A stretch of 64,000 nucleotides of DNA from Synechococcus sp. CB0101 (GTDB lineage Bacteria > Cyanobacteriota > Cyanobacteriia > PCC-6307 > Cyanobiaceae), in assembly GCF_000179235.2 (NCBI RefSeq), contig NZ_CP039373.1, positions 775,860-839,859 of the forward strand, written 5' to 3'. Shown one piece after another: positions 5,210 to 50,145 of this stretch. The notes under the pieces were generated by a model, which saw only the letters and a list, made by a program, of their open reading frames with translations, did not search any database and was not told the DNA's origin. A program made the position numbers and the translations under genes. Position 1 is the first letter of the stretch, and every line of letters starts with the position of its first letter.

Positions 5210-5235
5210 CTTCGAGATAGCCGGCGAAGGGCCTG

Positions 5236-8541: not shown

Positions 8542-8560
8542 AACACAAGGAGACCCAGCC

Positions 8561-10036: not shown

Positions 10037-10038
10037 CG

Positions 10039-10518
10039 ATGCAATATGGCCTCCCGCTGCTGATCGGCCTGGGTAACCGCCTGCGCAGCGACGATGGCGC
10101 CGGCGTTCGGCTGGCGGAGGCGATTGAAGCGCAAGGCTCGGGGCTCGAGGTGTTGATCTGCCATCAGCTCACACCCGACCTGGCGGAGCCCATCAGCCGG
10201 GCCAGCGCGGTGCTTTTTATGGATGCCTGGTTCGCCGCATCAGGGAAATCCGAAGACCAAGCCAGCAGCCCTGCCCTGCTCCCACCGCAGCTGCACCCCC
10301 TTGAAGCCTCTGCCAGCGGCGACCCCAGCGGCCATGCCCTCACACCCGCGCAGTTGCTGGCCCTGAGCAGAGCGCTGTATGGGTCGTGTCCCCCCGCCTG
10401 GCAACTGTTGATCCCCGGGGAGCAGTGGAAGGTGGGCGAGCAGCTCTCCGCGCAAACCACGGCCGCCTGCCGTGAGGCCTTGCCGCTGGTGCTGGCCTGG
10501 GGTGCACGCCATGCATGA
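10039..10518 (+). CDS. hoxW: HoxH maturation endopeptidase HoxW
   Basis: A 159-residue hydrogenase maturation protease of the HyaD/HoxW family, starting 2 bases after the hoxH stop. The N-terminal GLGNRLRSDDGAG motif has the first nickel-sensing acid, and FMDAW supplies a second. It is expected to trim the HoxH C-terminal extension. The end overlaps hypA by 8 bases. Confidence 0.92.
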   Translation: MQYGLPLLIGLGNRLRSDDGAGVRLAEAIEAQGSGLEVLICHQLTPDLAEPISRASAVLFMDAWFAASGKSEDQASSPALLPPQLHPLEASASGDPSGHALTPAQLLALSRALYGSCPPAWQLLIPGEQWKVGEQLSAQTTAACREALPLVLAWGARHA

Positions 10519-10852
10519 GCTGGCCCTGCTGCAGGAGCTCTGTGCCCTGGCCACCGCCGCGGCCACCGAGCAAGGGGCCAAGCGGATTCATCGGATCGAG
10601 CTGCGGGTGGGGGAACTGGGCGGGGTCGACCCCGACGCCCTACGGCAGGCCTTCGCCGTGGTGGCCGCCACGGCTCCCTGGCAGGAGACGGAGCTGCAGC
10701 TGGAGGTGGTGCCAACCCGCTGTTTCTGCCCACACTGTGAACAGGCCTTCAGCCCGCTGGATGTGATCCACGCCTGCCCCACATGCGGTTCGATCAGCCG
10801 GCAGGTTCTGGAAGGCCGGGAGCTGGAGCTGGTGGCCCTGGAGGTGTCGTAG
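10511..10852 (+). CDS. hypA: Hydrogenase nickel insertion protein HypA
   Basis: A 113-residue HypA with the invariant MHEL start whose His2 binds nickel, and a zinc-ribbon with two Cys pairs (CFCPHC and CPTC). It cooperates with HypB to load nickel into HoxH. The start is fixed by the MHEL motif, which lies inside the hoxW end; hypB starts directly after the stop. Confidence 0.95.
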   Translation: MHELALLQELCALATAAATEQGAKRIHRIELRVGELGGVDPDALRQAFAVVAATAPWQETELQLEVVPTRCFCPHCEQAFSPLDVIHACPTCGSISRQVLEGRELELVALEVS

Positions 10853-11548
10853 ATGTGCGGGCAATGCGGCTGCGATGCACCAGCGGCGGTGGCCGCCGCG
10901 CCGCGTCAACGGCTGGAGCTGCATCAGGGCCTGCTCAGCCGCAACGATCGCCAAGCGGCCCACAACCGCGAACACTTCCAGCGCCACGGCCTGCGCACCC
11001 TCAATCTGCTGTCGGCGCCCGGATCGGGCAAAACGGCACTGCTTGAGCAGCTGGCCCGGCAGTGGCCACGCCCGCCGATTGGCGTGATCGTGGGGGATCT
11101 GGCCACCGACAACGACGCCCAACGCCTACAGGCAGCCGGGGCACGGGCGGTACAGATCCGCACCGGCGATCTCTGCCACCTGGATGCAGCGTTGGTGGAT
11201 CAGGCCTTCGCGCAGCTGAATTGCCGCGGCATGGATCTGCTGGTGATCGAAAACGTGGGCAACCTGGTCTGCCCCGCCGCCTTCGACCTGGGGGAGCAAC
11301 GGCGTGTGGCCGTGCTGTCGGTAACGGAAGGAGAAGACAAAGCGCTCAAGTACCCGGCTTTGTTCAAGAGCGCCGACGCCGTGGTGATCAACAAGTGCGA
11401 CCTGGCTGTAGCCACGGGCTTTGATCGGCGCAGCGCTATGGACAATCTGCAGGCCATCGCGCCCCAGGCGGAGCTGTTTGAGCTCTCAGCCCGCACGGGA
11501 GAGGGCCTCGATGCGCTGATCCGCTGGTTGGATGCACACCCCGCCTGA
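10853..11548 (+). CDS. hypB: Hydrogenase nickel incorporation GTPase HypB
   Basis: A 231-residue SIMIBI-class GTPase. The P-loop APGSGKT is at residues 55-61, ENVGNLVCP is the conserved metal-site segment, and INKCDL is the guanine-specificity motif. The N-terminus is MCGQCGC, a short Cys motif, without the long His-rich stretch found in some HypB proteins. It overlaps the hypF start by 17 bases. Confidence 0.95.
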   Translation: MCGQCGCDAPAAVAAAPRQRLELHQGLLSRNDRQAAHNREHFQRHGLRTLNLLSAPGSGKTALLEQLARQWPRPPIGVIVGDLATDNDAQRLQAAGARAVQIRTGDLCHLDAALVDQAFAQLNCRGMDLLVIENVGNLVCPAAFDLGEQRRVAVLSVTEGEDKALKYPALFKSADAVVINKCDLAVATGFDRRSAMDNLQAIAPQAELFELSARTGEGLDALIRWLDAHPA

Positions 11549-13886
11549 GGCTGAGCAACACCTCAGCCTTCAGCTGCAGGGGCTGGTGCAGGGGGTGGGG
11601 TTGCGCCCGCACGTGGTGCGCTTGGCCCAGCGCCATGGCCTGCGCGGCACGGTGCACAACAGTGCCCAGGGCGTGCAGCTGGAGCTGGAGGGTCCGCGCC
11701 AGTCGCTTGAGGCCTTTCGCGCTTGCCTGCTGGCGCGACCGCCCGAGCGTGCACGCATCGATCACAGCGCCAGCCGTTGGGGGCCAGCCCTGGGGGCTTC
11801 AGACGGCGTGGCAATCCTGGCGCCGCAGAGCACAGGGGGCGCTACGGCACTGGTGAGTCCAGATCTGGCGATCTGCCCCAGCTGCCTGGCTGAACTGAGC
11901 GATCCCAGCAACCGCCGTTACGGCTATCCGTTCATCAGCTGCACCGACTGCGGCCCCCGCTACAGCGTGGTGGAGCAGCTGCCGTTCGAGCGGGAACACA
12001 CCAGCTTCCGCCATTTCCCGCTCTGCCCCCAGTGCCGTCGCGAGTTCGGCGATCCAAGCGATCGACGCTTCCATGCCCAAACGATCAGCTGCCCCAGCTG
12101 CGGACCCCAACTGCACTGGGATGGCCAACCGATCGGCAGCACGGAGGCGATCCAAGCGGCAGCCGAGGCCTTAGCCGCAGGAGCGGTCGTGGCGCTGCAG
12201 GGGGTGGGCGGCTTTCAGCTACTGGTGGATCCAACCCATGCCGCAGCGGTGCAGCAACTGCGCCAGCGCAAGGGCCGCCCCGAGAAACCCCTGGCTCTAC
12301 TCGCCAACAGCGCCTGGATGGAGCGCCATTGCCACTGCAACGCCGGCGAACGGGAGCTCTGGCTCGGTCCAGCGGCGCCGATTGTGCTGCTGCGCCGTAA
12401 CGCCGATCAGCCGCCAGCCTTCGCTGCCGGTGTCGCCGGCATCACCCCCTGGCTGGGGGTGATGCGCCCGTGCTCCGGCCTTCAGCACCTGCTGCTGGAA
12501 GCCTGCGGCGGTGTGCTGGTGGCCACCAGTGCCAACCGCTCCGGTGAACCCCTCTGCGCCGATGGTGTTGCGGATGCCGACGTGCTGCGGTGCCTCGCCG
12601 ATCACGTGCTCAGCCACACCCTGCCGCTGCTGAACCGCATCGACGACAGCGTGACCCGCTGCGCTGCAGGAGGCCCGCTGGTGTTGCGCCTCGGGCGCGG
12701 CCTTGCCCCTGTGGCGTTGCCGCATCCAGAGTTGCCAACCGGCGGCCACCTGGCCCTGGGGGCACAGATCAAAGGCGCCTTTGCACTGCAGACCGCCAGC
12801 CACCGCCTGCTCAGCCCCGACCTGGGGGATCTGAGCAGCCTCGCGGGCAACGCCCATCACCAACAGAGCTGCCGGGAGTGGCTGAGGCGCCATGGCCTGG
12901 CCGTGAGCCGCCTGGTTTGCGATCAGCACCCCGGCTACAGCAGCAGCGCCTGGGCCAAGGCATGGGCCCAGCGTGATGCAGTGCCACTGCTGCAGGTGCA
13001 ACACCACCACGCCCATCTGCTCGCCGTGATGGCCGAACACCGCATCACCGGCCCTGCGCTGGGCGTGGCCTGGGATGGCTCCGGCCAGGGGGGCGACGGC
13101 AGCCTCTGGGGCGGCGAAGCGTTAGCGATCCACGGAGATCGCTACACGCGGATCGCCCATCTACGGCCCTGGCCGTTACCGGGAGGTGAGCGCGCCCAGC
13201 GGGAACCGCGCCGGGCGCTGTTGGGGATGCTGCTCGAGGCCTACGGCCCTGGATGGCGGGATCGCCTCCAACCCCGCCCACACCTGGCCTTCAGCGAGGA
13301 GGAGCTGCAGGTGTTGGAGCAGAGCGTGCAGCGGGGGATCAACGCACCACGGAGCTCCAGCATCGGCCGACTCTTTGATGCGGTGGCAGCTCTGTTGGGG
13401 CTGGCGCAGCAGTGCAGTTACGAAGCCCAAGCCGCCCTTGCCCTGGAAGCGCTGGCCATGGAGGCAGAGGCCAGCGCGCGCCAATGGCGGTTGCACTTGC
13501 CCTTACAACGACTCAGTGCACAGGAACCCTGGCAATGGAACTGGCAACCGCTGCTGGAGCAGCTGCTGGAGGCCCTCCAACAGAACACCCCAGCGCCTGG
13601 GCTCGCCCTGGCCTTTCATCAAGCCCTGGCCGAAGCGATCGCCGCCCTGGCCCGGGCGGAGCACTGCGAGCAACTCCTGCTGGCGGGAGGCTGCTTTCAG
13701 AACGCGCTGCTGCTCGAGCTCACCACCCGCGCCCTCCGCACGCAGGGATGCCAACCGCTCTGGCCGCAGCAACTCCCCTGCAACGACGCCGCCCTGCCAA
13801 TCGGACAGCTGCTGGCGGCCGAAACCATGCCTATAAACCGGGTAGCCCCTGGGGCCGCGAACGATGTGCCTGGCCGTTGCCGGTGA
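11532..13886 (+). CDS. hypF: Carbamoyltransferase HypF
   Basis: A 784-residue HypF that converts carbamoyl phosphate to the thiocarbamate on HypE, the source of active-site cyanide. In order: acylphosphatase domain (GLVQGVGLRPHV near residue 20), two zinc fingers (CPSC/CTDC and CPQC/CPSC), YrdC-like domain, and Kae1-like domain with the metal-binding HHHAH near residue 496. All domains look intact. It overlaps hypB at the start and hypC at the end. Confidence 0.95.
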   Translation: MHTPPEAEQHLSLQLQGLVQGVGLRPHVVRLAQRHGLRGTVHNSAQGVQLELEGPRQSLEAFRACLLARPPERARIDHSASRWGPALGASDGVAILAPQSTGGATALVSPDLAICPSCLAELSDPSNRRYGYPFISCTDCGPRYSVVEQLPFEREHTSFRHFPLCPQCRREFGDPSDRRFHAQTISCPSCGPQLHWDGQPIGSTEAIQAAAEALAAGAVVALQGVGGFQLLVDPTHAAAVQQLRQRKGRPEKPLALLANSAWMERHCHCNAGERELWLGPAAPIVLLRRNADQPPAFAAGVAGITPWLGVMRPCSGLQHLLLEACGGVLVATSANRSGEPLCADGVADADVLRCLADHVLSHTLPLLNRIDDSVTRCAAGGPLVLRLGRGLAPVALPHPELPTGGHLALGAQIKGAFALQTASHRLLSPDLGDLSSLAGNAHHQQSCREWLRRHGLAVSRLVCDQHPGYSSSAWAKAWAQRDAVPLLQVQHHHAHLLAVMAEHRITGPALGVAWDGSGQGGDGSLWGGEALAIHGDRYTRIAHLRPWPLPGGERAQREPRRALLGMLLEAYGPGWRDRLQPRPHLAFSEEELQVLEQSVQRGINAPRSSSIGRLFDAVAALLGLAQQCSYEAQAALALEALAMEAEASARQWRLHLPLQRLSAQEPWQWNWQPLLEQLLEALQQNTPAPGLALAFHQALAEAIAALARAEHCEQLLLAGGCFQNALLLELTTRALRTQGCQPLWPQQLPCNDAALPIGQLLAAETMPINRVAPGAANDVPGRCR

Positions 13887-14055
13887 ACTGATCGAGATCA
13901 GTGAGCACAGCGATCCGCTGTGGCGCATGGGCGAGGTGAGCTTCGGGGGTGTGCTGCGCCAGGTGAGTCTGGCCTGCGTGCCCGAGGCCCGGGTGGGCGA
14001 TCAGCTGCTGGTGCATGTGGGCGTGGCGCTCACGGTGCTGGAGCCCGAGCGATGA
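13864..14055 (+). CDS. hypC: Hydrogenase maturation chaperone HypC
   Basis: A 63-residue HypC/HupF chaperone. MCLAVAGEL includes the essential Cys2 that holds the Fe(CN)2CO intermediate with HypD, and VGDQLLVHVGVAL is the typical C-terminal strand region. It overlaps hypF by 23 bases and nifJ by 4. Confidence 0.95.
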   Translation: MCLAVAGELIEISEHSDPLWRMGEVSFGGVLRQVSLACVPEARVGDQLLVHVGVALTVLEPER

Positions 14056-17000
14056 GCACGGAGGCAACCAGCGCCTGGCTGGATGGCAACGAGGCGGCGG
14101 CAAGAGTGGCCTATCGCCTCAACGAGGTGATGGCGATCTACCCGATCACCCCGGCCTCACCGATGGGCGAGTGGGCTGATGCCTGGGCGGCGGAAGGGCG
14201 ACCCAACCTCTGGGGGCAGGTGCCGCAGGTGGTGGAGATGCAGAGCGAGGGCGGTGCCGCCGGCATGGTGCACGGCGCCCTTCAGGCCGGCGCCCTCACC
14301 ACCACCTTCACGGCATCGCAGGGTCTGCTGTTGATGCTGCCCAACCTCTACAAAATTGCCGGCGAGCTCACAGCAGCGGTGATCCATGTGGCTGCGCGCA
14401 CGCTGGCCACCTCGGCGTTGTCGATCTTTGGCGACCACAGCGATCTGATGGCCACCCGCGGCACGGGCTGGGGGCTGCTGATGGCGGCATCGGTGCAGGA
14501 GTGCGGCGACTTCGCGGCCATCGCCACCGCCGCCAGCCTGGCCGGCCGCGTGCCGTTGCTGCATGGCTTCGATGGCTTCCGCACCTCCCATGAGATTCAG
14601 CGGGTGGAGCTGATCAGCGATGCGGTGCTGCGCGAGCTGGTGCCCGAGGCAGTGGTGGCGGCCCACAGGGCCCGCGGCCTCTCCCCCGACCATCCGGCGC
14701 TGCGGGGCAGCAGCCAGAACCCCGATCTGTGCTTCCAGGCCCATGAGGCGGTGAACCCGTTCCAGAACGCCCTGCCAAGCCATGTGCAGGCGGCGATGGA
14801 TCGCTTTGGCGCACTCACCGGTCGCCATTACCGCCTGTTCGACTACCACGGCCATCCCGAGGCCGATCGGGTGATCGCGCTGATGGGCAGCGGCTGCGAA
14901 ACCGCCTGCGCCACCGCCGATGCCTTGATCGCCGCCGGGGAGCGGGTGGGGGTGCTGAAGGTGCGCCTATTCCGGCCCCTGGCCGCTGAGGCGTTGGTGG
15001 CGGCTCTACCGGCCAGCACCCGCCGGGTGGCGGTGCTGGATCGCTGCAAAGACCCCGGAAGCCAGGGCGAACCGCTCTACCTCGAGGTGCTGGCAGCACT
15101 GGATGAGCACTGGCCAGGAACCCAGAAACCGCAGGTGGTGGGGGGCCGCTACGGCATCGCCTCCAAGGAATTCACACCGGCGATGGTGAAGGCGGTGTTC
15201 ACCAACCTGGCGTGCGAGCAGTCACGCCGCCACTTCACGGTGGGCATCGTCGACGACGTCACCCACCTCTCCCTGCCGCTGGAGCCGAACTTCAGCATCG
15301 AAGCCGCCGACAGCCTCCGGGCTGTGTTCGTGGGCCTGGGCTCCGACGGCACCGTGGGCGCCAACAAAAACACCCTCAAGATCGTGGGCGATGCCACCGG
15401 TCTGCACGGCCAGGGGTATTTCGTTTACGACTCGAAGAAGGCGGGCTCGATCACGGTGTCGCACCTGCGCTTCAGCCCGCAGCCGATCCATGCCAGCCAT
15501 CTGATTGAGCAGGCCCAGCTGCTGGCCTGCCACCACTGGGATTTCCTCGAGCGCTTTGATCTGCTGGAGCTGGCCGCACCAGGCGGCACATTGCTGCTCA
15601 ATGCCCCCTGGCCGGCCGAGCAGTGCTGGGCTCAACTGCCGGAGCGCGTGCAACAGCTGATCCAGCGCAAACGGCTGCGGGTGTTTGTGCTGAATGCTGC
15701 CGCCATTGCCCGCGAACATGGCCTGGGCGGACGCATCAACACCGTGATGCAGGTGGCTTTCTTCGCCGTAGCCAACCTGATGCCACTGGAGCAGGCGCTG
15801 AACGCCATGCGCACGGCGATCCAGAAGAGCTATGGCCGCAAAGGGGCGCAGGTGGTGGCAGCCAACCTGGCGGCGATCGAAGCGGCCCGCACCCAGCTGC
15901 AGGAGCTGGTGGTGCCTGCGGCCAAGGAGCCAACAGCGCTGGCGGAGCTGCCCATCCCAGCGGCCTTAGCGGAAGCACCGGCCGCCCTGCGCGAGCTGTT
16001 ACTGCCGCAACTGCAGCGCCGCGGTGATCAGCTGCCCGTGAGCGCCCTGCCCTGCGACGGCAGCTTCGCCACCGCCACCAGCCAATGGGAGAAACGCAAC
16101 ATCGCCGAACAGGTGCCGGTGTGGGAGCCGGATCTATGCGTGCAGTGCGGCAAGTGCGTGATGGTGTGCCCCCATGCCGTGATTCGCGCCAAGGTGGCGG
16201 AGCCCGAGGCATTGGCCGCCGCCCCGGAAGGCTTCCGGAGCGCCCCAGCCCGCGATGCCCATTGGAGCGGCCAACGCTTCACGATTCAGGTGTCTGCTGA
16301 AGACTGCACCGGCTGCAACCTCTGTGTGGAGGTGTGCCCAGCCCGTGATCGCCGCGAACCGCGCCGCAAGGCTTTGAACATGGCGCCGCAGCGCCCCCTG
16401 CGCGAGCAGAACCGCCAACACTGGCCCTTCTTCCTGGAGCTGCCGGAGGCCAACCGCACCGCGCTCAACCTGCACCACATCAACCAGCAGCAGCTGCAGC
16501 GGCCCCTGTTCGAGTTCTCGGGCGCCTGCGCCGGCTGCGGCGAAACGCCCTACCTCAAACTCGCCAGCCAGCTGTTCGGCGATCGGATGGTGGTGGCCAA
16601 CGCCACGGGTTGCTCATCGATCTACGGCGGCAATCTGCCCACCACCCCCTGGGCCACCAACGCTGAAGGGCGCGGACCGGCCTGGAGCAATTCGCTGTTT
16701 GAAGACAACGCCGAATTCGGCCTCGGCTTCCGCGTGGCCTTCGATCAACGCCGCCGCCGCGCCGAACAGCTGCTGCGTCAGCAGGCGGCGGAACTGCCCG
16801 AGGCGCTGGTGGATGGCCTGCTGCATGCCGACCAAGGCGATGAGGCCGGCATCCATGAGCAGCGCCAGCGGGTGGCCGAGCTGAAGCAGCGCACGACCGC
16901 GGCGGAACTGCTCGATCTGGCCGACGACCTGGTGAAACGCAGTGTCTGGATCGTGGGCGGAGACGGTTGGGCCTACGACATCGGCTACGGCGGCCTGGAT

Positions 17001-17594
17001 CACCTGCTGGCCAGCCACCACGACGTGAACGTGCTGGTGCTCGACACGGAGGTGTACTCCAACACCGGCGGGCAGATGTCGAAAGCCACGCCCAAAGGAG
17101 CGGTGGCCAAGTTCGCCAGCGGCGGCAAACCATCAGCCAAGAAGGATCTGGGCCTGATGGCGATGACCTACGGCCACGTGTATGTGGCCAGCGTGGCGAT
17201 GGGAGCGCGCGATGAACACACGCTGCGCTGCTTTTTAGAAGCCGAGGCCTATCCGGGGCCTTCCTTGATCGTGGCCTATTCCCACTGCATCGCCCACGGC
17301 ATCGACATGGCCAAGGGCATGGCGCAGCAACAGCAGGCGGTAGATGCAGGGCGCTGGCTGCTCTACCGCCACGACCCGCGTCGCCTGGAGCAAGGGCTGC
17401 CCCCACTACAGCTCGATTGCCGCAGCCCCCACCTGCCGCTGGACGAAGCGATGGCGAGCGAGAACCGCTTTCGCATGCTGCGTTACAGCCATCCGGAACA
17501 GGCCCGCGCCCTCACCCAGGAAGCCCAACATGAGCTCAAGGAGCGCTGGCAGCGCTATCAGCGCCTGGCCCAACCCAGCGAGCCAGCCCCATGA
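14052..17594 (+). CDS. nifJ: Pyruvate:ferredoxin (flavodoxin) oxidoreductase
   Basis: A 1180-residue single-chain PFOR, which interconverts pyruvate + CoA and acetyl-CoA + CO2 with ferredoxin or flavodoxin. In order: pyrimidine-binding domain with YPITPASPMGE, the gamma domain, two ferredoxin-like clusters (CVQCGKCVMVCP near residue 696, CTGCNLCVEVCP near 752), and a ThDP domain with CAGCGETPY near 826, GDGWAYDIGYGG and the NTGGQMS magnesium motif. The start overlaps the hypC stop (ATGA). Despite its name, nothing nearby suggests nitrogen fixation; the context is hydrogenase and fermentation. Confidence 0.95.
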   Translation: MSTEATSAWLDGNEAAARVAYRLNEVMAIYPITPASPMGEWADAWAAEGRPNLWGQVPQVVEMQSEGGAAGMVHGALQAGALTTTFTASQGLLLMLPNLYKIAGELTAAVIHVAARTLATSALSIFGDHSDLMATRGTGWGLLMAASVQECGDFAAIATAASLAGRVPLLHGFDGFRTSHEIQRVELISDAVLRELVPEAVVAAHRARGLSPDHPALRGSSQNPDLCFQAHEAVNPFQNALPSHVQAAMDRFGALTGRHYRLFDYHGHPEADRVIALMGSGCETACATADALIAAGERVGVLKVRLFRPLAAEALVAALPASTRRVAVLDRCKDPGSQGEPLYLEVLAALDEHWPGTQKPQVVGGRYGIASKEFTPAMVKAVFTNLACEQSRRHFTVGIVDDVTHLSLPLEPNFSIEAADSLRAVFVGLGSDGTVGANKNTLKIVGDATGLHGQGYFVYDSKKAGSITVSHLRFSPQPIHASHLIEQAQLLACHHWDFLERFDLLELAAPGGTLLLNAPWPAEQCWAQLPERVQQLIQRKRLRVFVLNAAAIAREHGLGGRINTVMQVAFFAVANLMPLEQALNAMRTAIQKSYGRKGAQVVAANLAAIEAARTQLQELVVPAAKEPTALAELPIPAALAEAPAALRELLLPQLQRRGDQLPVSALPCDGSFATATSQWEKRNIAEQVPVWEPDLCVQCGKCVMVCPHAVIRAKVAEPEALAAAPEGFRSAPARDAHWSGQRFTIQVSAEDCTGCNLCVEVCPARDRREPRRKALNMAPQRPLREQNRQHWPFFLELPEANRTALNLHHINQQQLQRPLFEFSGACAGCGETPYLKLASQLFGDRMVVANATGCSSIYGGNLPTTPWATNAEGRGPAWSNSLFEDNAEFGLGFRVAFDQRRRRAEQLLRQQAAELPEALVDGLLHADQGDEAGIHEQRQRVAELKQRTTAAELLDLADDLVKRSVWIVGGDGWAYDIGYGGLDHLLASHHDVNVLVLDTEVYSNTGGQMSKATPKGAVAKFASGGKPSAKKDLGLMAMTYGHVYVASVAMGARDEHTLRCFLEAEAYPGPSLIVAYSHCIAHGIDMAKGMAQQQQAVDAGRWLLYRHDPRRLEQGLPPLQLDCRSPHLPLDEAMASENRFRMLRYSHPEQARALTQEAQHELKERWQRYQRLAQPSEPAP

Positions 17595-18589
17595 CGATCT
17601 CACTAGCCACCACGTATCTCGGGCTGGAGCTGCCCTCCCCGCTGGTGGTGGGTGCCGCGGCACCGCTGAGCACGGATCTGCAGCGCCTGCAGCAACTGGA
17701 ACAGGAGGGAGCAGGGGCCGTGGTGCTGCATTCGCTCTTCCTCGAGCAGATCGAACGCGACTGGCAGGAGTGGATTCACCACCAGGAGCACAACAGCGAG
17801 AGCCATCCCGAGGCACTCAACTACCGACCGGCCAGTGATCCGCTGCATCTGGGCCTGGAGGGCTACCTGGAGGAGATCCGCCGCAGCCGAGAGGTGCTGC
17901 AGATCCCTGTGATCGCCAGTCTCAACGGCAGCCACGGCGGGGACTGGAGCGAGGCGGCTCGAGCCATTGAGCAGGCCGGAGCCCAGGCGATCGAGCTGAA
18001 CCTGTATTCCGTGCCGTGCGACATCAACCGCAGTGGTGCTGAGCTGGAAGCGGAGCAGCTGGCCATCGTGCGCGAGGTGTGCAGCGCTGTGACGGTGCCA
18101 GTCGCTGTGAAGCTCAGCCCCTTCTACACATCGCTGGCGGCAATGGCGGCGGGCTTCCAGGAGGCTGGCGCCAGTGGCCTGGTGCTGTTCAACCGCTTCC
18201 TGCAACCCCAGGTGGACATCGACAGCCTCTGCACCGATGTGCACATGCAGCTGAGCCATACGGATGAGCAACGCCTACCGCTGCGCTGGATCGGGTTGCT
18301 GTCGGGACGGGTTGACCTGGAGCTGGCGGCCAGCACCGGCATCGCCAGCGGCCACGACGTGGTGCGGATGCTGATGGTGGGTGCTCAGATCACCCAAGTG
18401 GTGGGCGCCTTACTGCGCCATGGCCCAGGTCAGCTGGCCCGGATGCGCAGCGAGCTGATCCAGTGGCTTGAAGAGATCGAGATCACCGACCTCAACAGCC
18501 TGCGCGGCAGCTTGAACCAGCAGCGCTGCCCCAACCCTGAAGCCTTCGAACGAGCCCAATATCTGAGAGCTCTCAGCAGCTATCCATGA
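17591..18589 (+). CDS. Dihydroorotate dehydrogenase-like FMN protein
   Basis: A 332-residue TIM-barrel protein of the dihydroorotate dehydrogenase-like group: PSPLVVGAAAPLS at the first strand, a central AIELNLY segment, VAVKLSPF with the conserved Lys, and late GRVDLELAASTGI and VRMLMVGA phosphate-binding parts. Such paralogues are often found next to nifJ. The real substrate is unknown; pyrimidine synthesis is less likely given the coupling (ATGA overlaps with nifJ and hypD). Confidence 0.8.
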   Translation: MTISLATTYLGLELPSPLVVGAAAPLSTDLQRLQQLEQEGAGAVVLHSLFLEQIERDWQEWIHHQEHNSESHPEALNYRPASDPLHLGLEGYLEEIRRSREVLQIPVIASLNGSHGGDWSEAARAIEQAGAQAIELNLYSVPCDINRSGAELEAEQLAIVREVCSAVTVPVAVKLSPFYTSLAAMAAGFQEAGASGLVLFNRFLQPQVDIDSLCTDVHMQLSHTDEQRLPLRWIGLLSGRVDLELAASTGIASGHDVVRMLMVGAQITQVVGALLRHGPGQLARMRSELIQWLEEIEITDLNSLRGSLNQQRCPNPEAFERAQYLRALSSYP

Positions 18590-19656
18590 GCGAAGCCCAA
18601 GCACTGCTGGAGCAGATTCGCGGCGGCATCAGCCGGCCCTGGACGCTGATGGAGGTGTGCGGCGGCCAGACCCACTCGTTACTACGCCATGGCATCGACC
18701 AGCTGTTGCCACCAGAGATCCAACTGATTCATGGGCCGGGGTGCCCGGTGTGCGTGACCGCCACAACCCGGATCGATCAGGCCATGGCCCTGGCCAAAAA
18801 ACCCGGGGTGATCCTTTGCTCCTATGGCGACATGCTGCGAGTGCCGGGCAGCGACGGACGGGATCTGCTCAGCCTGCGGGCAAAGGGCGCCGATGTGCGC
18901 GTGATCTACGCACCGCTGGATGTGCTGAAGCTGGCCCGCGATCACCCCGAACGGCCGGTGGTGTTCTTTGCGGTGGGCTTTGAAACCACCGCACCCGCCA
19001 CAGCCCTGCTCGCTCAGCAAGCGCTGGCGGAGGGCATCTCCAACCTGCAGCTCCTGGTGGCCCACGTGCGGGTAGCGCCCGTGCTCGATCAACTGCTCAG
19101 CGATCCGGGCTGCGCGGTGCAGGGGGTGCTGGCGGCAGGGCATGTGTGCACGGTGATGGGTGAAGCGGAGCTCCAGTCGCTGGTGGCGCGCCATCAACGA
19201 CCCATCGTGATCACGGGCTTCAGCGCCGAAGAGTTGCTGCTGGGGATCTGGCGCTGCGTGCAACAACTGGAGGAAGGTGTGCATCGGCTCGAAAACGCCT
19301 ATGCCAAGGCAGTCGCCAGCGGCGGCAACCGCGGCGCCCAGGCACTGCTGGAAGAGGTGTTTGAACCGGTGGACACCACCTGGCGAGGGCTGGGAACGAT
19401 CCCAGCGGGGGGCTACAGGCTGCGGGCGCCGTTTGATGTGCTCGGCCCACCGACATGCCGCCAGAACACAGCAATCGGCAGCTGCACTGTGAGCAACAAC
19501 GAAGCGAACTGCCCCAGTGGGCTGGTGTTGCAGGGGTTGCTGCGGCCCCATCAATGCCCCAGCTTCGGAACAGCCTGCACACCCGATGCCCCCCTGGGTG
19601 CACCGATGGTGTCGAGCGAGGGAGCCTGCGCGGCTTACTACCGCTACCACCGCTGA
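18586..19656 (+). CDS. hypD: Hydrogenase maturation protein HypD
   Basis: A 356-residue HypD scaffold, on which Fe(CN)2CO is assembled with HypC. Motifs are MEVCGGQTH near residue 22, HGPGCPVCVT near 48, GFETTAPAT near 130 and the C-terminal Cys-rich region holding the [4Fe-4S] cluster. It is coupled to the upstream DHOD-like gene by an ATGA overlap and lies 3 bases before hypE. Confidence 0.95.
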   Translation: MSEAQALLEQIRGGISRPWTLMEVCGGQTHSLLRHGIDQLLPPEIQLIHGPGCPVCVTATTRIDQAMALAKKPGVILCSYGDMLRVPGSDGRDLLSLRAKGADVRVIYAPLDVLKLARDHPERPVVFFAVGFETTAPATALLAQQALAEGISNLQLLVAHVRVAPVLDQLLSDPGCAVQGVLAAGHVCTVMGEAELQSLVARHQRPIVITGFSAEELLLGIWRCVQQLEEGVHRLENAYAKAVASGGNRGAQALLEEVFEPVDTTWRGLGTIPAGGYRLRAPFDVLGPPTCRQNTAIGSCTVSNNEANCPSGLVLQGLLRPHQCPSFGTACTPDAPLGAPMVSSEGACAAYYRYHR

Positions 19657-19659
19657 GGC

Positions 19660-20679
19660 ATGCAACACGCTGATGCCACCATCCAATTGGCCCATGGCGG
19701 CGGCGGCCGGCTCAGCCAACAGCTGATCCACGACGTGCTGTTGCCGGCCTTCGGACCAGCCGATGGCGTGCTGCACGATGCAGCGCTGCTGCCAAGCCCG
19801 GGCCAAACCCTCGCCTTCACCACCGACTCCTATGTGGTGCGGCCGCTGTTTTTTCCCGGCGGAGACATTGGCCGGATGGCCGTCATCGGCAGCGTGAATG
19901 ATCTAGCGATGGCCGGAGCGAGGCCAGTCGCCCTCAGCTTGGGACTGATCCTCGAGGAGGGCCTACCGATGGGCACCTTGAAGCGGGTGGTGGACTCCAT
20001 CCGCGAGGCAGCTGAGCAATGCGGGGTGGCAGTGCTCACCGGCGACACCAAAGTGGTGGAGCGAGGCAAAGGCGATGGCGTGTTCGTGAACACCAGCGCC
20101 ATCGGCGTTGTGGAACACGGGCTCACCATCCACCCCAGCTCCGTACAACCAGGCGACGCCGTGCTGGTGAGCGGTGACCTCGGCCGCCATGGCACGGCCA
20201 TCCTGATCGCGCGCGAGGAGCTGGGCTTCCGCAGCACGCTGGAGAGCGACCTAGCTCCCTTGCACAGCTGCGTGCTGGAGCTCATCGCAGCGGGAGTGGA
20301 GCTTCACTGCCTGCGAGACCTCACCCGCGGTGGCCTGGCAAGTGGACTCGATGAAATTGCACGCGGTGCTAGCTGCACGATCGAGGTGAACGAAGAAGCG
20401 ATCCCATTCGATCCGGCGGTAGACAGTGCCTGTGAACTGCTGGGGCTCGATCCCCTCGCCATGGCCAATGAAGGGCGAATGGTGGTGATCTGCCCGGCGG
20501 CCTCTGCGGAACTGGCCCTGCGGCACATGCGCTGTGATCACCCCAACGCCTGCCAGATCGGCACGGTGCAGGAATCACGGGAGGCACACTCACGGCATCC
20601 GGTACACCTACGCAATCGGTTCGGAGTGTTGCGCCCGCTGGAACTCGGTCGCGGTGAACAGTTGCCGCGCATTTGTTGA
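19660..20679 (+). CDS. hypE: Hydrogenase maturation protein HypE
   Basis: A 339-residue HypE of the PurM-like ATPase fold. HGGGGRLSQQLI near residue 12, FTTDSYVV, LTGDTKVVE and DLTRGGLA are visible. The protein ends PRIC, the C-terminal Cys that receives the carbamoyl group from HypF and is dehydrated to thiocyanate. This is the last gene of the hydrogenase run; no strong terminator follows. Confidence 0.95.
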   Translation: MQHADATIQLAHGGGGRLSQQLIHDVLLPAFGPADGVLHDAALLPSPGQTLAFTTDSYVVRPLFFPGGDIGRMAVIGSVNDLAMAGARPVALSLGLILEEGLPMGTLKRVVDSIREAAEQCGVAVLTGDTKVVERGKGDGVFVNTSAIGVVEHGLTIHPSSVQPGDAVLVSGDLGRHGTAILIAREELGFRSTLESDLAPLHSCVLELIAAGVELHCLRDLTRGGLASGLDEIARGASCTIEVNEEAIPFDPAVDSACELLGLDPLAMANEGRMVVICPAASAELALRHMRCDHPNACQIGTVQESREAHSRHPVHLRNRFGVLRPLELGRGEQLPRIC

Positions 20680-44128: not shown

Positions 44129-46819
44129 ATGCAGCTCAGCGCAGCTGAACCGATCAGCAGCCTCAGCGCCGAAAAGGCCCTGGCGGCTTTGCAGAGCAGC
44201 GCCCAAGGCCTGAGCAGCTCCGAAGCCTTCCAGCGCCTGCAGCGCTGCGGCCCCAATCGCCTACCGCCGCAGAGGCAACGGCCGCTGATTCTGCGCCTGA
44301 CGGATCAGTTCACCCACTTCATGGCCCTGTTGCTGTGGGCAGCAGGGGGCATGGCCTTTCTGGCACGCACGCCGGAGCTGGGCTGGGCGATCTGGAGCGT
44401 GGTGCTGATCAATGCTCTCTTCAGCTTCTGGCAAGACTTTCAAGCCGAGCGAACCCTGGCGGCGCTCACCCAGGTGCTGCCCCACCAGGTGCGGCTATGG
44501 CGCGATGGTGACCTGCAGGTGCTGCCTGCCGACGACCTCGTGCCGGGCGATCTGATCGAACTCGAAGCCGGCGATCAGGTGCCGGCCGACTGCCGGGTGA
44601 TCGAAGCAGCAGCGCTGTATCTCAATGCAGCGGTGCTCACGGGTGAATCCCTGCCGGTGGCCCGCACCGCGCAAGCGCAGAACCAGCGGCTGCGCACCTC
44701 AGAAGCCACCAACCTGCTACCGGCAGGCACCACCGTGGCCGCAGGCCGGGCACAAGCTGTGGTGTACGCCACCGGCGCCGACACGGAATTCGGCCAGGTG
44801 GCGCATCTGAGTGCCGGCACCGAACGCGCCCCAAGCACGCTGGAGATTCAGGTGGGCCGGATTGTGCGCACCGTCACCAGCATCGCCGTGGGCATGGGCG
44901 CCCTGGCCTTCATCGCCGGTGTGGTGCTGGTGGGCGTGGGTCCGCTGGAGAGCCTGGTGTTCGCCATCGGGATCATCGTGGCCAACGTGCCGGAGGGGTT
45001 GCTGCCCACCGTGACCCTGGCCCTAGCCCTGGCGACGCAGCGCATGGCACGGGAGCGGGCCCTGGTGCGGCGCCTATCCGCGGTGGAAACACTCGGCTGC
45101 GTGAGCGTGATCTGCACCGACAAAACCGGCACCCTCACCGCTAACGCCATGGCGTTACAAAACACCTGGAGCAGCGATGAGCCCTTGCTGCTGCTGCTCT
45201 CGGGATTGTGTTGCAACGCCTCCGAAGCGGTTGGTGATCCCACGGAAACGGCGCTGTTGCAGGGCGCGCAGCAGGCGGGCCTCGATCTGGCAGACGAGCA
45301 ACAGCGACTGCCGCGCCAGCGGGAGCTGCCCTTCGATTCCGAACGGCGAATGATGAGCGTGCTGGTGCATTGGCAGGCCGATCCGCGCTGGCCCGAACCC
45401 AGCAGCTGGATGGTGTGCAGCAAAGGCGCCCCCCTTGAGCTGCTGCAGCACTGCAGCCATTGGCTCCGGGGCGGCACGATCACGGCCCTCGGCCCGGCCG
45501 AACGGCAGGTTGTACGATCGGCCAACGACGTGATGGCCCGCCAGGGCCATCGGGTGCTCGCCATCGCCTGCAAGCCCTGCGATCAGCCGCACCTCGAGGA
45601 AGAGGAGCTGGTGCTGGTGGGGTTGGTGGGCCTTTACGACCCGCCGCGGCCTGGCGTGAGTCAGGCCATCGCCGCCTGCCACCACGCCGGCATCAAGGTG
45701 ACGATGGTGACCGGCGACTACGGCCTCACCGCCGAAGCCATCGCCCGCCAGATCGGGTTGCTGGATGCGCCCGCCCATGCCGGCCCCGATCCGATACGGG
45801 TGGTGAATGGCAGCGATCTCCATCGCCTCAGCGATGCGCAGCTACGGCAGCTGCTGAAGTTCCGGTCGCGGCTGGTGTTTGCCCGCATGGCGCCGGAGCA
45901 GAAGTTGCGCCTGGTGCAGGCCTACCGAGCACTTGGAGACGTGGTGGCGGTCACCGGCGATGGCGTCAACGACGCCCCAGCCCTGCGGGCCGCTGATGTG
46001 GGCATCGCCATGGGCCGCAGCGGCACCGATGTCGCCCGAGAAGCCGCCGACATCGTGCTGGTGGACGACAACTTCGCCACCATCGTCTCGGCGGTGCGTC
46101 ACGGCCGAGGCGTGTACGACAACATTCGCCGCTTCATCCTCTACATCCTCGCTTCGAATGTGGCGGAGGTAGCACCGTTTCTCACGATGCTGCTGCTGCG
46201 CATCCCTGCCGCCCTCACGGTGCTGCAGATCCTGGCGGTGGACCTGGGCACGGATCTGCTGCCCGCCCTGGGCCTTGGCGCCGACCTCCCCCAGGCCGAT
46301 GTGATGCAGCAGCCGCCGCGCCATCGCGATCAACCCCTCCTGGATCGCCCCTTGCTGCGCCAGGCCTACCTGTTTCTCGGACTGCTGGAGGGAAGCTTAG
46401 CGATGCTGGGCTATGGCCTCACCTGGTGGAGCCATGGCGTTGGGCTCTGGCCATTGCGCCGCCTGGCACCAACCCTGTTGCATCACCAGGGCAGCGCTGA
46501 GCTGCTGCTGATTCAGCACGAGGCCTCCGCGGTAGCCCTGGGGTCGATCGTGTTCGCCCAGGTCGGCACGGTGCTCGTCTGCCGGGGTGGGCGGCGTTTC
46601 CGGGCCAACAGGCTGCTGTGGCTGGGCATTGCCACGGAGGTGATCGCCTTTGTGGTGCTGCAGGGCTGGCCGCCCCTGGCCCGCACCTTCCAGATGGCGC
46701 CGATCCCATCACAGTTGTGGTGGTGGCTGTTGCTGTGCATCCCGGCGCCACTGCTGGCGGTTCAACTCCGCAGCCTCTGGAGGGCTGATCCCCATGGTTC
46801 AAACCGCGCTCTGGCCTGA
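44129..46819 (+). CDS. P-type ATPase of the Na,K-ATPase-like (P2C) type
   Basis: 896 residues. Phosphorylated Asp331 lies in CTDKTGTLT, with TGES, CSKGAP and GDGVNDAPAL also present. Membrane helix 4 reads NVPEGLLPTVTL, helix 5 ASNVAEVAPF and helix 6 VDLGTDLLPALGL, the signatures of animal Na,K/H,K pumps rather than SERCA. It therefore most likely moves monovalent cations such as Na+ or K+; no beta subunit is expected in bacteria. It overlaps the following gene by 26 bases. Confidence 0.9.
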   Translation: MQLSAAEPISSLSAEKALAALQSSAQGLSSSEAFQRLQRCGPNRLPPQRQRPLILRLTDQFTHFMALLLWAAGGMAFLARTPELGWAIWSVVLINALFSFWQDFQAERTLAALTQVLPHQVRLWRDGDLQVLPADDLVPGDLIELEAGDQVPADCRVIEAAALYLNAAVLTGESLPVARTAQAQNQRLRTSEATNLLPAGTTVAAGRAQAVVYATGADTEFGQVAHLSAGTERAPSTLEIQVGRIVRTVTSIAVGMGALAFIAGVVLVGVGPLESLVFAIGIIVANVPEGLLPTVTLALALATQRMARERALVRRLSAVETLGCVSVICTDKTGTLTANAMALQNTWSSDEPLLLLLSGLCCNASEAVGDPTETALLQGAQQAGLDLADEQQRLPRQRELPFDSERRMMSVLVHWQADPRWPEPSSWMVCSKGAPLELLQHCSHWLRGGTITALGPAERQVVRSANDVMARQGHRVLAIACKPCDQPHLEEEELVLVGLVGLYDPPRPGVSQAIAACHHAGIKVTMVTGDYGLTAEAIARQIGLLDAPAHAGPDPIRVVNGSDLHRLSDAQLRQLLKFRSRLVFARMAPEQKLRLVQAYRALGDVVAVTGDGVNDAPALRAADVGIAMGRSGTDVAREAADIVLVDDNFATIVSAVRHGRGVYDNIRRFILYILASNVAEVAPFLTMLLLRIPAALTVLQILAVDLGTDLLPALGLGADLPQADVMQQPPRHRDQPLLDRPLLRQAYLFLGLLEGSLAMLGYGLTWWSHGVGLWPLRRLAPTLLHHQGSAELLLIQHEASAVALGSIVFAQVGTVLVCRGGRRFRANRLLWLGIATEVIAFVVLQGWPPLARTFQMAPIPSQLWWWLLLCIPAPLLAVQLRSLWRADPHGSNRALA

Positions 46820-47495
46820 CCGCCGCCACGCCGGCCGGGCCCTGGCCCAACAACTCAGCAACTGGTGCGGCCGCCCCCAAGCCCTGGTGGTGGGCCTACC
46901 CCGCGGCGGCATCGTGGTGGCTGCCGAGGTGGCACGCCAACTGCGGCTGCCTCTGGCCAGCTGGGCGGTGCGCAAACTCGCCCATCCCCACGCTCCGGAA
47001 TTGGCCCTAGGGGCCATGGCGCCAGGAGGGGTGCTGATCTGGGATGAGGACAACGCCCGCTCTTACGGCCTCGATAGCCCACAGCGCCAGCGCCTTGAGC
47101 TGGAGCAACGGCAAGAGCTGGAGCGCCGGCAGCAGCTCTATGGCGATCCACCGCTCGCCGCCCTGCGCCATCGCCCCTTGCTGGTCGTCGACGACGGGGT
47201 GGCCACCGGGCTCACAGTGCGCGCCGCCCTGCAATCCCTACGCCAGGCGGAGCCGAATGCCCTGGTGTTGGCGGTGCCGGTGATCGATCGGCGCGTCGCC
47301 GCGGCCATCAGGCCACAGCTCGATGGGTTGGTGGCCTTGGCGGAGGTGGATGACCTCTGGGCCGTGGGGGCCTGGTATCAGCGCTTTGAGCCCGTGAGCG
47401 ACCGGGAGGTGTTACGGCTCATGGCTGCGGGTAATGGGGATCGAGCCAGCAGCGCGGCAACGGCTCCCCGGAAGGAAAGATCAGATCCGATTTGA
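46794..47495 (+). CDS. Phosphoribosyltransferase-like protein
   Basis: 233 residues. RPQALVVGLPRGGIVVAAEVA begins a type I PRTase fold, and LLVVDDGVATGLTVRAAL is the PRPP-binding loop. Stand-alone members of this group usually have no known base substrate and are annotated only as PRTases. It overlaps the upstream ATPase gene, so it is co-transcribed. Its end overlaps a small minus-strand gene. Confidence 0.85.
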   Translation: MVQTALWPDRRHAGRALAQQLSNWCGRPQALVVGLPRGGIVVAAEVARQLRLPLASWAVRKLAHPHAPELALGAMAPGGVLIWDEDNARSYGLDSPQRQRLELEQRQELERRQQLYGDPPLAALRHRPLLVVDDGVATGLTVRAALQSLRQAEPNALVLAVPVIDRRVAAAIRPQLDGLVALAEVDDLWAVGAWYQRFEPVSDREVLRLMAAGNGDRASSAATAPRKERSDPI

Positions 47496-47697: not shown

Positions 47698-48144
47698 TCA
47701 ACGGTTCAAGCGCTGCATCTGCCAGGTGACGAGCGTGCCCACCGGGCTCCAGAGCAGGTAGGGAATCAACAACAACGCCGCAGGTTGTGATGGGGCCGCC
47801 ACCACCACCGTGAGCGCCACGCCCCAGAGCCAGCCGGCCAGACCCACCACCGTGCCGTTGGCCAGGCGACGCGTGCGGCAGATGAGCCAGGTGTAGCTCT
47901 GCACCAACACCATCAGCAGCAGATAGCCAGCCATCAACCCCCAACTGGCGGTGCGATTCCAGGCCAGGAGAGCCGATGCATAGAAGCAGCCGTAGATGAG
48001 CACCCAGATCAGCGGGATCAAGCCCTCAAAGCTGAGCCAACTCGGCCGGCGCAGGCGCAGAAACCAGGCGAACTCCTCCTGGCTGGGCATGATCACCACC
48101 ACCAGGGTGCCGATCACCAGCAGGATCACGATCGCGGCGGTCAT
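47698..48144 (-). CDS. tspO: TspO/MBR-family protein
   Basis: 148 residues with five hydrophobic helices. LRRPSWLSFEGLIPLIWVLIYGCFYASA matches the RPSWxPP...W...Y...A pattern of TspO/MBR. In bacteria TspO binds tetrapyrroles and senses oxygen or stress. The Trp pattern is divergent from well-studied members, so the ligand is uncertain. Confidence 0.8.
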   Translation of the reverse strand: MTAAIVILLVIGTLVVVIMPSQEEFAWFLRLRRPSWLSFEGLIPLIWVLIYGCFYASALLAWNRTASWGLMAGYLLLMVLVQSYTWLICRTRRLANGTVVGLAGWLWGVALTVVVAAPSQPAALLLIPYLLWSPVGTLVTWQMQRLNR

Positions 48145-48384
48145 CGAGGCGAAGCATCTGCTCCAGCCTGATCACAACCAGGCCGTACTGCCGCAGTCAG
48201 CCCAACGGATCGGCCGCACTCTCGCCGCATTGCTGCAGCCGCGCGTCCAGCGGCAGCGTTAGCGCGCCAGCCTGAGCGGGGCCGAACGAGCCATGGGTTA
48301 GCGCCTCGTTCTGCCGCACTCCACTCACCCCCGCCCCGAGAGCGAACTGAGCCTTCGCCAGGGCGGGCCCTCAAGGACTTCACC

Positions 48385-49440
48385 ATGACCACCCTTTCTT
48401 CCGCCGCCGGGCGTTCTGGCTGGCGGCCCTTCCGGGCATGGATCACCAACACCAACAACCGGATCTACATCGGTTGGTTTGGCGTGCTGATGATTCCCTG
48501 CCTGCTCACCGCCACGATCGTGTTCGCCATGGCCTTTGTGGCCGCTCCTCCAGTGGATGTGGATGGCATCCGCGAACCGCTCAGCGGTTCACTGCTGGGC
48601 GGCAACAACCTGATCAGCGCAGCCGTGGTGCCCAGCTCCAATGCGATCGGGCTGCACTTCTATCCCCTCTGGGAGGCGTCCAGCGTGGAGGAATGGCTCT
48701 ACAACGGCGGGCCTTATCAGCTGATCGTGTTCCACTTCCTGATCGGCATCACCGCTTGGATGGGCCGCCAATGGGAACTGAGCTACCGGCTGGGCATGCG
48801 CCCCTGGATTGCCGTGGCCTTCTCGGCCCCCTGGGCCGGCGCCATGGCTGTGCTGCTGGTGTATCCGCTGGGGCAAGGATCCTTCGCCGATGGGATGCCC
48901 CTCGGCATCTCCGGAACCTTCAATTTCATGCTGGTGCTGCAGGCGGAACACAACGTGTTGATGCACCCGCTGCACATGCTCGCCGTCGCCGGCAGCTTCG
49001 GCGGAGCCTTCTTGGCGGCATTGCATGGATCGCTGGTGAGCAGCAGCTTGATTCGCGAAACCACCGAACAGGAATCGATTAATCGCGGCTACTTATTTGG
49101 CCAGAAGGAACCCACCTACAACATCGTGGCCGCTCACGCCTATCTGGGCCGGCTAATCATGCCCTATGCCACCAGCGATAACAGCCGCAGCGTGCATCTG
49201 TTGCTCGCCGCCTGGCCCGTGATCGGCATCTGGTGTTCGGCCCTGGCGGTGGCCAGCTTTGCCTTCAACCTCAACGGCTTCAACTTCAACCACTCAGTTC
49301 TTGATCATCAGGGCCGCGTGATCCCAACCTGGGCCGATGTTCTCAACCGCGGCAATCTCGGTATTGAAGCCATGCACGAGCGCAACGCCCATCAGTTTCC
49401 CCTTGATCTGGCGGCTCGGCCTGTTGCAACAAACGGCTGA
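48385..49440 (+). CDS. psbA: Photosystem II D1 protein, divergent D1'-like form
   Basis: 351 residues, one shorter at the N-terminus than standard D1; numbers below are standard D1 numbering. Tyr161 (YZ), His118, Asp170, Glu189, His190, His198, His215, His272, His332, Glu333, His337, Asp342 and Ala344 are all kept, so oxygen-evolving cofactors and P680 can bind. Gln130 is the low-light type. Ala80 and Leu158 are two of the three D1' marks, with Ser at 286 rather than Ala. The QB pocket is unusual: Leu255, Pro261, Thr264, Ser265, Asp266. The tail after Ala344 is only 8 residues. AAGGA lies about 6 bases before the ATG. Confidence 0.95.
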
Positions 49441-49470
49441 ACCCAGGCTGAACGAAGGCTGAGCCAAACA

Positions 49471-49497
49471 AAGGCGCCCCGTGTCGGGCGCCTTATC
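49471..49497 (+). terminator. Terminator hairpin after psbA
   Basis: AAGGCGCCC, a 6-base loop and GGGCGCCTT form a perfect 9-bp stem 30 bases after the psbA stop. The T-run is weak (TTAT). Confidence 0.75.
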
Positions 49498-49956: not shown

Positions 49957-50145
49957 TTGGCAGCCACGATCACGCTTGAGCTCACAGTTCAGGAGCTCAA
50001 TCTGTTGCGCAATACCATCCGAGCCCGCCAGATCTACGAGCCCTGCCAGCACACGCTGGCCCGGGGGATCTGGCAACCCTGGATGGCTCCACTACTGGAC
50101 AAGCTCAGCCAAGCCGTAGCGCAACACACCCAGCAGAGCCGCTGA
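49957..50145 (+). CDS. Small hypothetical protein
   Basis: 62 residues from a TTG start. TITLELTVQELNLLRNTI is an amphipathic strand-helix, followed by a helical C-terminal half. GAGGC lies about 8 bases before the TTG. It overlaps the convergent ChrA gene by 54 bases. I do not recognise a family; it may be a small cyanobacterial protein. Confidence 0.4.
   Translation: MAATITLELTVQELNLLRNTIRARQIYEPCQHTLARGIWQPWMAPLLDKLSQAVAQHTQQSR

Follow-up and report, generated by a model that had tools for sequence, protein, structure and literature searches.

The window analysed here, a stretch of 64,000 nucleotides from Synechococcus sp. CB0101, carries a psbA gene whose product keeps the residues of the water-splitting site and replaces much of the QB pocket, which raises the question of what kind of D1 it encodes and what a photosystem II built with it might be used for. 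The gene (psbA*; 48385..49440; all features lie on the forward strand unless stated otherwise) is an open reading frame with an ATG start and encodes an acceptor-side-remodelled D1 of 351 amino acids. AAGGA, a possible ribosome-binding site recognised by eye, is located 7 bases 5' of the ATG (48373..48377). The product reaches 625.4 bits on the NCBIfam model TIGR01151 (psbA), above the cut-off of 596.05, and thus belongs to the PsbA/D1 family. According to the alignment with other D1, the standard D1 position, which is used throughout, equals the window residue plus one.

The codons of the manganese ligand Asp170 (48889..48891), which is Glu in the more distant cousins L093 and L016, and of Glu189 and His190 (48946..48951) are retained, as are the C-terminal manganese ligands within residues 332-344 (H332, E333, H337, D342, and A344; 49375..49413). 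A preliminary description of this DNA had stated that A80, L158, and S286 are present, that Tyr161, all manganese ligands (seven in number), and the chlorophyll histidine are kept, and that only a short tail follows Ala344; the alignment bears out each of these points. The tail, ARPVATNG (49414..49437), comprises 8 residues compared to 15-16 in most compared rows. The product furthermore contains H118, H198, H215, and H272, keeps H252, L218, V219, and Y246, and has W126, W151, and A201 at positions which we take to be near chlorophylls and pheophytin.

Most of the departures are found on the acceptor side, within residues 201-276 (48982..49209), which comprise the end of helix D, the DE loop, and the QB/bicarbonate site. 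Residues 255-266 (49144..49179) carry F255L, F260M, Q261P, S264T, F265S, and N266D, and codon 244 (49111..49113) has changed from Glu to Pro at a residue described as lying on the bicarbonate side in an excerpt of PMC13272216. Leu255, Pro261, Thr264, Ser265, and Asp266 had been listed in the preliminary description and were found again in the alignment. That observation was correct and understated the extent of change, since F211L, M214L, E242K, E244P, G253A, L271V, F273L, and F274L have to be added.

For comparison, we assembled 168 D1 rows, namely 11 rows (7 distinct) of the clade formed by the window D1 and its relatives, 8 atypical rows, 100 D1' rows, and 49 standard, INT, or far-red rows. 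These are the rows nearest to the window product or its profile rather than a random sample; group labels were assigned here from residues 80, 158, and 333 (for the atypical fragment L053 by hand), and the atypical rows are D1 that lose manganese ligands, with rogue and possibly ChlF sequences unseparated. F255, Q261, and F265 are invariant in 100/100 D1' rows and in every lettered row (45-46) of the 49 other ordinary rows, S264 is present in 99/100 and 45/45 rows, respectively, and N266 in 98/100 and 45/45. Because these residues are invariant or nearly so in ordinary D1, the changes in the pocket are not due to chance. Defining as near-invariant those 198 positions within residues 12-344 that show at least 97% agreement among the 149 D1' and other ordinary rows, the window D1 departs at 18. 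Thirteen of these fall within residues 205-276, which hold 55 of the 198 positions (Fisher p = 5e-5), and with G201A, 14 fall within residues 201-276. Eight positions (G201, F211, M214, E244, Q261, S264, F265, and L271) are changed in all seven distinct clade rows, seven of them within residues 205-276 (Fisher p = 6e-4), and these seven acceptor positions vary at most 2-3% in the 149 ordinary rows.

The changed positions are largely those that also give way in rogue D1. At 26 near-invariant positions, here called rogue-type, at least 75% of the 8 atypical rows depart. Six of the eight clade-wide changes coincide with them (expected 1.05, p = 7e-5), as do 10 of the 18 changes in the window D1 (expected 2.4), so that the QB positions are altered in a rogue-like manner; this p-value, like those above, assumes independent and exchangeable positions, and sites in one pocket are neither. 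The replacing residue itself is shared at 211 (Leu in 7/7 clade and 8/8 atypical rows) and at 261 (Pro in 7/7 and 7/8). The overlap may reflect sites that give way once the constraint of QB binding is lost. Orthologues repeat the pattern with small variation: residue 255 is Leu or Met, and residue 265 is Ser in L001 (the window D1), L089, L091, and L092 and Thr in L090, which in addition carries N181H, as do most rogue rows.

We then counted the seven manganese ligands and the seven acceptor markers together in a set extended by viral rows, of which 246/254 are complete at all 14 positions. All 14 are kept in 225 rows. The combination of 7/7 ligands with 0/7 markers occurs in 8 rows, all from the clade (5 distinct genomes), and 6/7 ligands with no marker in 3 rows, the D170E cousins (2 distinct). 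The five complete atypical rows have 2-4 ligands and 0-1 markers, and the remaining 5 rows show one or two single departures. Among the D1' rows, L034, L135, and L077 have H332 replaced by Tyr or Gln, each together with one acceptor change (E244A or S264C). In the rows examined, kept manganese ligands thus go with kept QB-site residues and lost ligands with a changed QB site, and this clade separates the two. None of the open-access full texts listed by our literature searches described a D1 that pairs a complete set of ligands with a QB site of the rogue type; earlier key works on D1 may already contain one.

The published roles of the changed residues, taken from excerpts of the cited articles, indicate what such changes could do. 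According to Table 2 of PMC4030317, the QB head is contacted by D1 F255, F265, V219, L218, and H215 and the tail by F211, with repulsive contributions of G253, N266, and L271; six of these nine residues (F255, F265, F211, G253, N266, and L271) are changed in the window D1. Hydrogen-bond partners of QB are H215, S264, and the backbone of F265, and H252 and S264 are likewise linked by a hydrogen bond (PMC10535343). In the light, the Chlamydomonas mutants F265S and F265T reach growth rates of about 20% and 70% of that of the control, respectively, with a driving force from QA to QB of almost zero, very low flash oxygen yields, poor rates in low light, and increased atrazine sensitivity, while the oxygen-evolving complex is, according to the authors, not seriously affected (PMC11645544). 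In the D1-E244A mutant, QB is bound more weakly, the QA potential is higher, high light is better tolerated, and the response to bicarbonate and formate is abolished (PMC13272216). The QB-binding stretches are described as structurally conserved across D1 groups, with negative selection expected (PMC12096807).

We next asked to which D1 group the clade belongs. A quick tree, reduced from 136 to 67 rows by removing near-duplicates (five rows shorter than 320 aa were left out and two fragments added), already set the clade apart. In a careful tree of 53 rows hand-picked from the 168 without the two fragments, it was recovered with a support of 100/99 on a stem of length 0.38 and joined 17 of the 20 D1' (G3) rows with 95/92, whereas the eight atypical rows formed a separate group (100/100). 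In AU tests designed after the tree had been seen, union of the clade with the rogue-type rows (p = 0.176) or with picocyanobacterial D1' (p = 0.417) was not rejected, union with all G4, INT, and far-red rows was weakly rejected (p = 0.031), and union with picocyanobacterial G4 was borderline (p = 0.049). When residues 205-276 were left out, the closest rows outside the clade were D1' from its own family, including one encoded by the same genome. In the tree of residues 205-276 alone, a short stretch, the clade moved to the branch immediately next to the rogue rows (support 86-88), as expected from the shared changes. We considered whether the acceptor half of a rogue D1 had recombined into a D1' and discarded this: in four part-trees, all built from short parts (residues 12-200, all but 205-276, 201-344, and 205-276), the clade and the rogue rows each formed one group, and no mosaic became apparent.

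These trees are therefore best read as D1' ancestry of the clade followed by convergent changes towards a rogue-like acceptor side, with moderate support and short of proof, and kinship of the clade with rogue D1 is compatible with the AU test. The preliminary description had treated the D1' class as established. The tree position and the weak rejection of a G4-type union speak for this assignment; the AU result for the rogue-type union speaks against treating it as settled, as does the variation of residues 158 and 286 inside the clade. The combination of A80, L158, and A286, which we take to be the D1' (G3) signature and which occurs in most G3 rows compared, is replaced by A80, L158, and S286 in the window D1 and does not define the clade. 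To call the product a D1' with a remodelled QB pocket proved too narrow, as it belongs to a separate clade whose acceptor side is changed at the positions of rogue-type D1.

As far as searched, the gene is restricted to one picocyanobacterial genus and one stray MAG contig. Within the genus set of 25 genomes, close relatives (88-93% identity) are present in G016, G008, and G013, so that it is intact in four genomes with shared synteny when the window genome (G000) is included. In G023, a contig edge leaves residues 183-347 (165 residues, 87%), and in G011 a fragment is present that starts at about residue 116 (86%). The cousins (75-78% by the aligner) are found in G017 (L092), in G002 (L093), and on a MAG contig labelled Gammaproteobacteria (L016); L093 and L016 share D170E, A264, and a GC content of about 52%, compared to 61% in the window gene. 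Outside the genus, no match above 78% was among those listed for 251 family genomes, a search that would miss fragments like the ones in G011 and G023. A profile search of 388 class genomes gave at least 745 bits for the three sampled member genomes and 684 for the next match; both searches covered samples of larger groups with a limited number of candidates scored per genome. Phage origin was dismissed: the best phage match in 512 records was 74.1%, the best among the matches listed for at least 80 viral loci was 74%, and a degenerate DNA pattern for GRLIMPYAT, which is present in the subclade of the window D1 and not in the cousins, matched no viral contig.

Purifying selection acts on the gene. 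Among the four nearest clade members (L001, L089, L090, and L091), dN/dS (NG86) is 0.06-0.12, compared to 0.01-0.20 for D1' pairs and 0.04-0.16 for G4 pairs, which argues against a merely decaying gene. Pairs with cousins are saturated except L090-L092 (0.08), and the nearly identical L093 and L016 give 0.47 on very few changes.

The window genome (one contig, 2.79 Mb) encodes six psbA genes. Besides the remodelled one, these are a typical D1' (L002; A80, L158, and A286), two standard genes with identical scores and residues (L003 and L004), a second standard form (L005), and a standard gene with a frame break at the 3' end (L006, G000:C1:2193168-2194184). L006 differs from L003 by two gaps and no mismatch over 1183 bases; a C run near its 3' end is shortened, which disrupts the frame so that D342 and A344 are lost, owing either to decay or to a sequencing indel. 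Likewise, the psbD gene L008 (G000:C1 near 1084099, beside psbC) is split into two frames near residue 92; L007, the second psbD, is intact. The two frame breaks hint at indel errors in this assembly.

A scan for regulatory elements at the remodelled gene returned no promoter-like site and a single terminator-like site, which falls within the gene and is no more than chance would give; its upstream regions align poorly across relatives, and a conserved promoter was not recognised there. An Rfam scan yielded no family and one chance miRNA match (E 0.67), no direct or inverted repeats were found within 49400-50000, and no tRNA genes in the 64-kb window. A GGCGCCC/GGGCGCC hairpin seen by eye directly 3' of the gene (49473-49492) is absent from the output of the terminator scan. 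The spacer to the next open reading frame (49441-49956) measures 516 bases, compared to 113-177 in three relatives.

The wider neighbourhood suggests a context for the gene. A hydrogenase/fermentation island (5236..20679) encodes HoxE, F, U, Y, H, and W, HypB, HypF, PFOR, a DHODH-like protein, HypD, and HypE. HoxU, the HoxW-type protease, HypB, HypF, HypD, HypE, and PFOR exceed curated cut-offs and HoxH its Pfam cut-off, whereas HoxE, F, and Y are below the NCBIfam cut-offs and were named by best match and order. PEP synthase precedes the Hox genes, and the stretch from PEP synthase to HypE (2807-20679) lies upstream of the remodelled psbA, 28 kb from hypE. Several of the gene's neighbours have relatives at hox clusters elsewhere. 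A cation P-type ATPase gene (44129..46819) has its relative beside the hox cluster in G021, and relatives of a phosphoribosyltransferase-domain gene with uncertain start (46737..47495) are located within or next to the hox/hyp/PFOR cluster in both G017 and G021. A 62-aa open reading frame (49957..50145), without a match in Pfam or NCBIfam, is conserved beside the remodelled psbA and lies directly downstream of hypE in G002 and G017; a chromate transporter and a desaturase are among the neighbours further downstream. The order is 62-aa frame, ATPase, phosphoribosyltransferase, PEP synthase, and Hox in G021 and PFOR, DHODH, HypD, HypE, 62-aa frame, and phosphoribosyltransferase in G017; gene order in sister genomes is thus rearranged relative to the window. 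The divergent neighbour, a TspO/MBR family gene (47698..48144, reverse strand; PF03073 and synteny), was considered as a partner and rejected, as orthologues (63-76%) occur in nine genomes of the genus without the remodelled psbA within 1.5-kb flanks.

Two genomes retain remnants. In G011 (L144, G011:C14:4500-14500, at about 4476-4608), hoxE/F sequence (window 5296-5864) directly abuts the remodelled psbA from window position 48728 on, and in G015 (L294, G015:C2, 9145-9294), 50-60 C-terminal residues remain beside the 62-aa frame; neither genome has a match to hoxH or PFOR. Both look like deletions that took the island and the 5' part of the gene, in G011 a likely loss of about 43 kb relative to the window with syntenic flanks, although, given the fragmented assembly, this junction is possibly a chimera.

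Across the genus, the remodelled psbA, intact or contig-cut, was found in 7/17 genomes with hoxH and in 0/8 without (p = 0.04), a count that includes the contig-cut G023 and the cousins of G002 and G017; for the 14 best genomes only, the numbers are 6/11 and 0/3 (p = 0.15). PFOR exceeds its cut-off in 16/25 genomes and is absent from G002 despite hox. The 62-aa frame is present in 10/25 genomes; 9 of these have the remodelled psbA, a cousin, or a remnant, compared to 0/15 of the others (p = 5e-6). In an rpoB tree that covered 20 genomes (the other five of the 25 had no usable rpoB stretch), the gene and the G015 remnant mark one subclade and the cousins another. Only two independent hox/psbA contrasts fall on well-supported branches of this tree (four on all branches), and these two are in the expected direction (sign test, p = 0.5). 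The association is confounded by kinship, which explains much of it. As the gene is only 28 kb from hypE, joint loss with the island may be mere linkage; on the other hand, the cousin genes of G002 and G017 are far from hox, which is suggestive of joint absence in the hox-less relatives G007, G010, and G014 not being due to linkage. Related picocyanobacteria from dark anoxic water with hox genes and fermentation are described in PMC8955281, and the word psbA does not occur in its main text.

Taken together, we tentatively favour, at nearly even chances, that the gene encodes a lineage-specific, D1'-derived D1 for a photosystem II with an intact manganese shell and a detuned acceptor side, used in the dark or at low oxygen. 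Such a D1 would assemble into photosystem II with its manganese-binding shell intact, and the loss of F211, F255, F265, S264, and L271 at the head and tail of QB, together with that of E244, would leave little driving force for electron transfer from QA to QB. Charge recombination would then be favoured, resulting in a low-output, protected photosystem that would probably operate together with the Hox hydrogenase and PFOR during fermentation in the dark or at low oxygen. We infer slow transfer from QA to QB by analogy with point mutants in other organisms, and both the conditions of expression and the protective role are predictions. The many changes may compensate for effects known from single mutants in other D1 backgrounds, and S264T and F265S could act in opposite ways. 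Changes at S264 are herbicide resistance changes and F265S confers hypersensitivity, so that a herbicide prediction cuts both ways. Given the very low flash oxygen yields of both F265 mutants, a full equivalent of F265S or F265T might make little oxygen.

The retention of all manganese ligands and of H215, H252, L218, Y246, and H272, a dN/dS as low as in D1' and G4 pairs, and the tree position with D1' would equally fit an ordinary D1' whose QB pocket has drifted with compensation, leaving near-normal transfer from QA to QB and perhaps an altered quinone or inhibitor specificity. We regard this as rather unlikely, if the likeliest of the alternatives: seven positions that hardly vary in 149 ordinary rows would have to have drifted, the changes match rogue-type positions far beyond expectation, and the effects published for F265S/T and E244A (excerpts of PMC11645544 and PMC13272216) would need compensation. 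The same overlap with rogue positions, D170E in the cousins, N181H in L090, and the finding that the matches listed for a rogue query (L088) in 201 family genomes were 68-71% identical, with none of those listed above 71%, would suit a second, independently evolved sentinel-type D1, which replaces normal D1, switches photosystem II off in darkness or anoxia, makes no oxygen, and has not yet eroded its ligands. Sentinel D1 is, however, defined by ligand loss, whereas five of seven distinct clade rows keep all seven ligands and the nearest four are under purifying selection, which makes this origin unlikely. The idea that nitrogen fixation explains a sentinel-like D1 was discarded, with nifH above cut-off in 1/25 genomes of the genus (G001) and not in the window genome.

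TspO family proteins bind tetrapyrroles, and with a TspO gene as neighbour, a heavily altered acceptor site, W126, W151, and A201, and an unusual combination of residues overall, a photo-oxidoreductase with a new substrate, reusing the D1 fold as ChlF does, can be imagined. It appears improbable, as no pigment-synthesis family is among the ten neighbours scanned and the manganese ligands and H252 are retained, unlike in ChlF (excerpt of PMC10535343), which also agrees with the preliminary statement that this is not a chlorophyll f synthase. That the gene is a decaying pseudogene or an assembly error, as the truncated remnants in G011 and G015 and the frame breaks in two other photosystem genes of the genome might suggest, is highly improbable considering the intact copies with shared synteny in four genomes and their low dN/dS. 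Returning to the D1'-derived, detuned D1, its combination of residues looks like a natural half-way form towards rogue D1. It is conceivable, with the balance somewhat against it, that it is a 'half-rogue' D1 in which the acceptor side was dismantled first while manganese is still bound, with ligand loss just starting as D170E in the sister branch. If so, a sentinel-type photosystem would have been approached a second time by a separate route, linked to fermentation and not to nitrogen fixation, and the clade would be a new D1 group outside G0-G4. For the origin of rogue D1, it would suggest the order acceptor side first, donor side later. If the protein forms a working, water-splitting photosystem II with little driving force from QA to QB, it would provide a natural test of the limits of, and reasons for, acceptor-side detuning.

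Compared with known D1 types, the clade resembles D1' (G3) in A80, in L158 or A286 in several members, and in the kept manganese ligands and cleavage residue; it differs in having replaced all of seven acceptor residues on which the 100 D1' rows agree with few or no exceptions and in that the window D1 has T124 and M155. With rogue or sentinel D1 (G2), it shares L211, L or V214, the absence of E244, P261, altered residues 264, 265, and 271, and the loss of Y73. In contrast, D170 is changed in the eight ligand-less rows, and E333 and D342 are missing from them wherever these positions can be read, whereas the window D1 has the full set of seven ligands and D170E is confined to the cousins L093 and L016. 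Trp126 is shared with D1-INT, whose marker pair is W126 and W260 according to an excerpt of PMC9740203, but residue 260 is Met and the clade does not group with the two INT rows. Like ChlF (G1), the window D1 is a divergent paralogue with altered QB surroundings, and it retains the manganese ligands and H252, unlike ChlF, for which H252Q is described (excerpt of PMC10535343). It also differs from far-red D1, characterised by Tyr120 and Thr155 (excerpt of PMC9740203), in having Leu120 and Met155. At residue 265, the clade resembles the Chlamydomonas F265S and F265T mutants, whose residues recur in it (Ser, or Thr in L090); those are laboratory point mutants in a standard D1, whereas the clade is natural and carries many further changes in the pocket.
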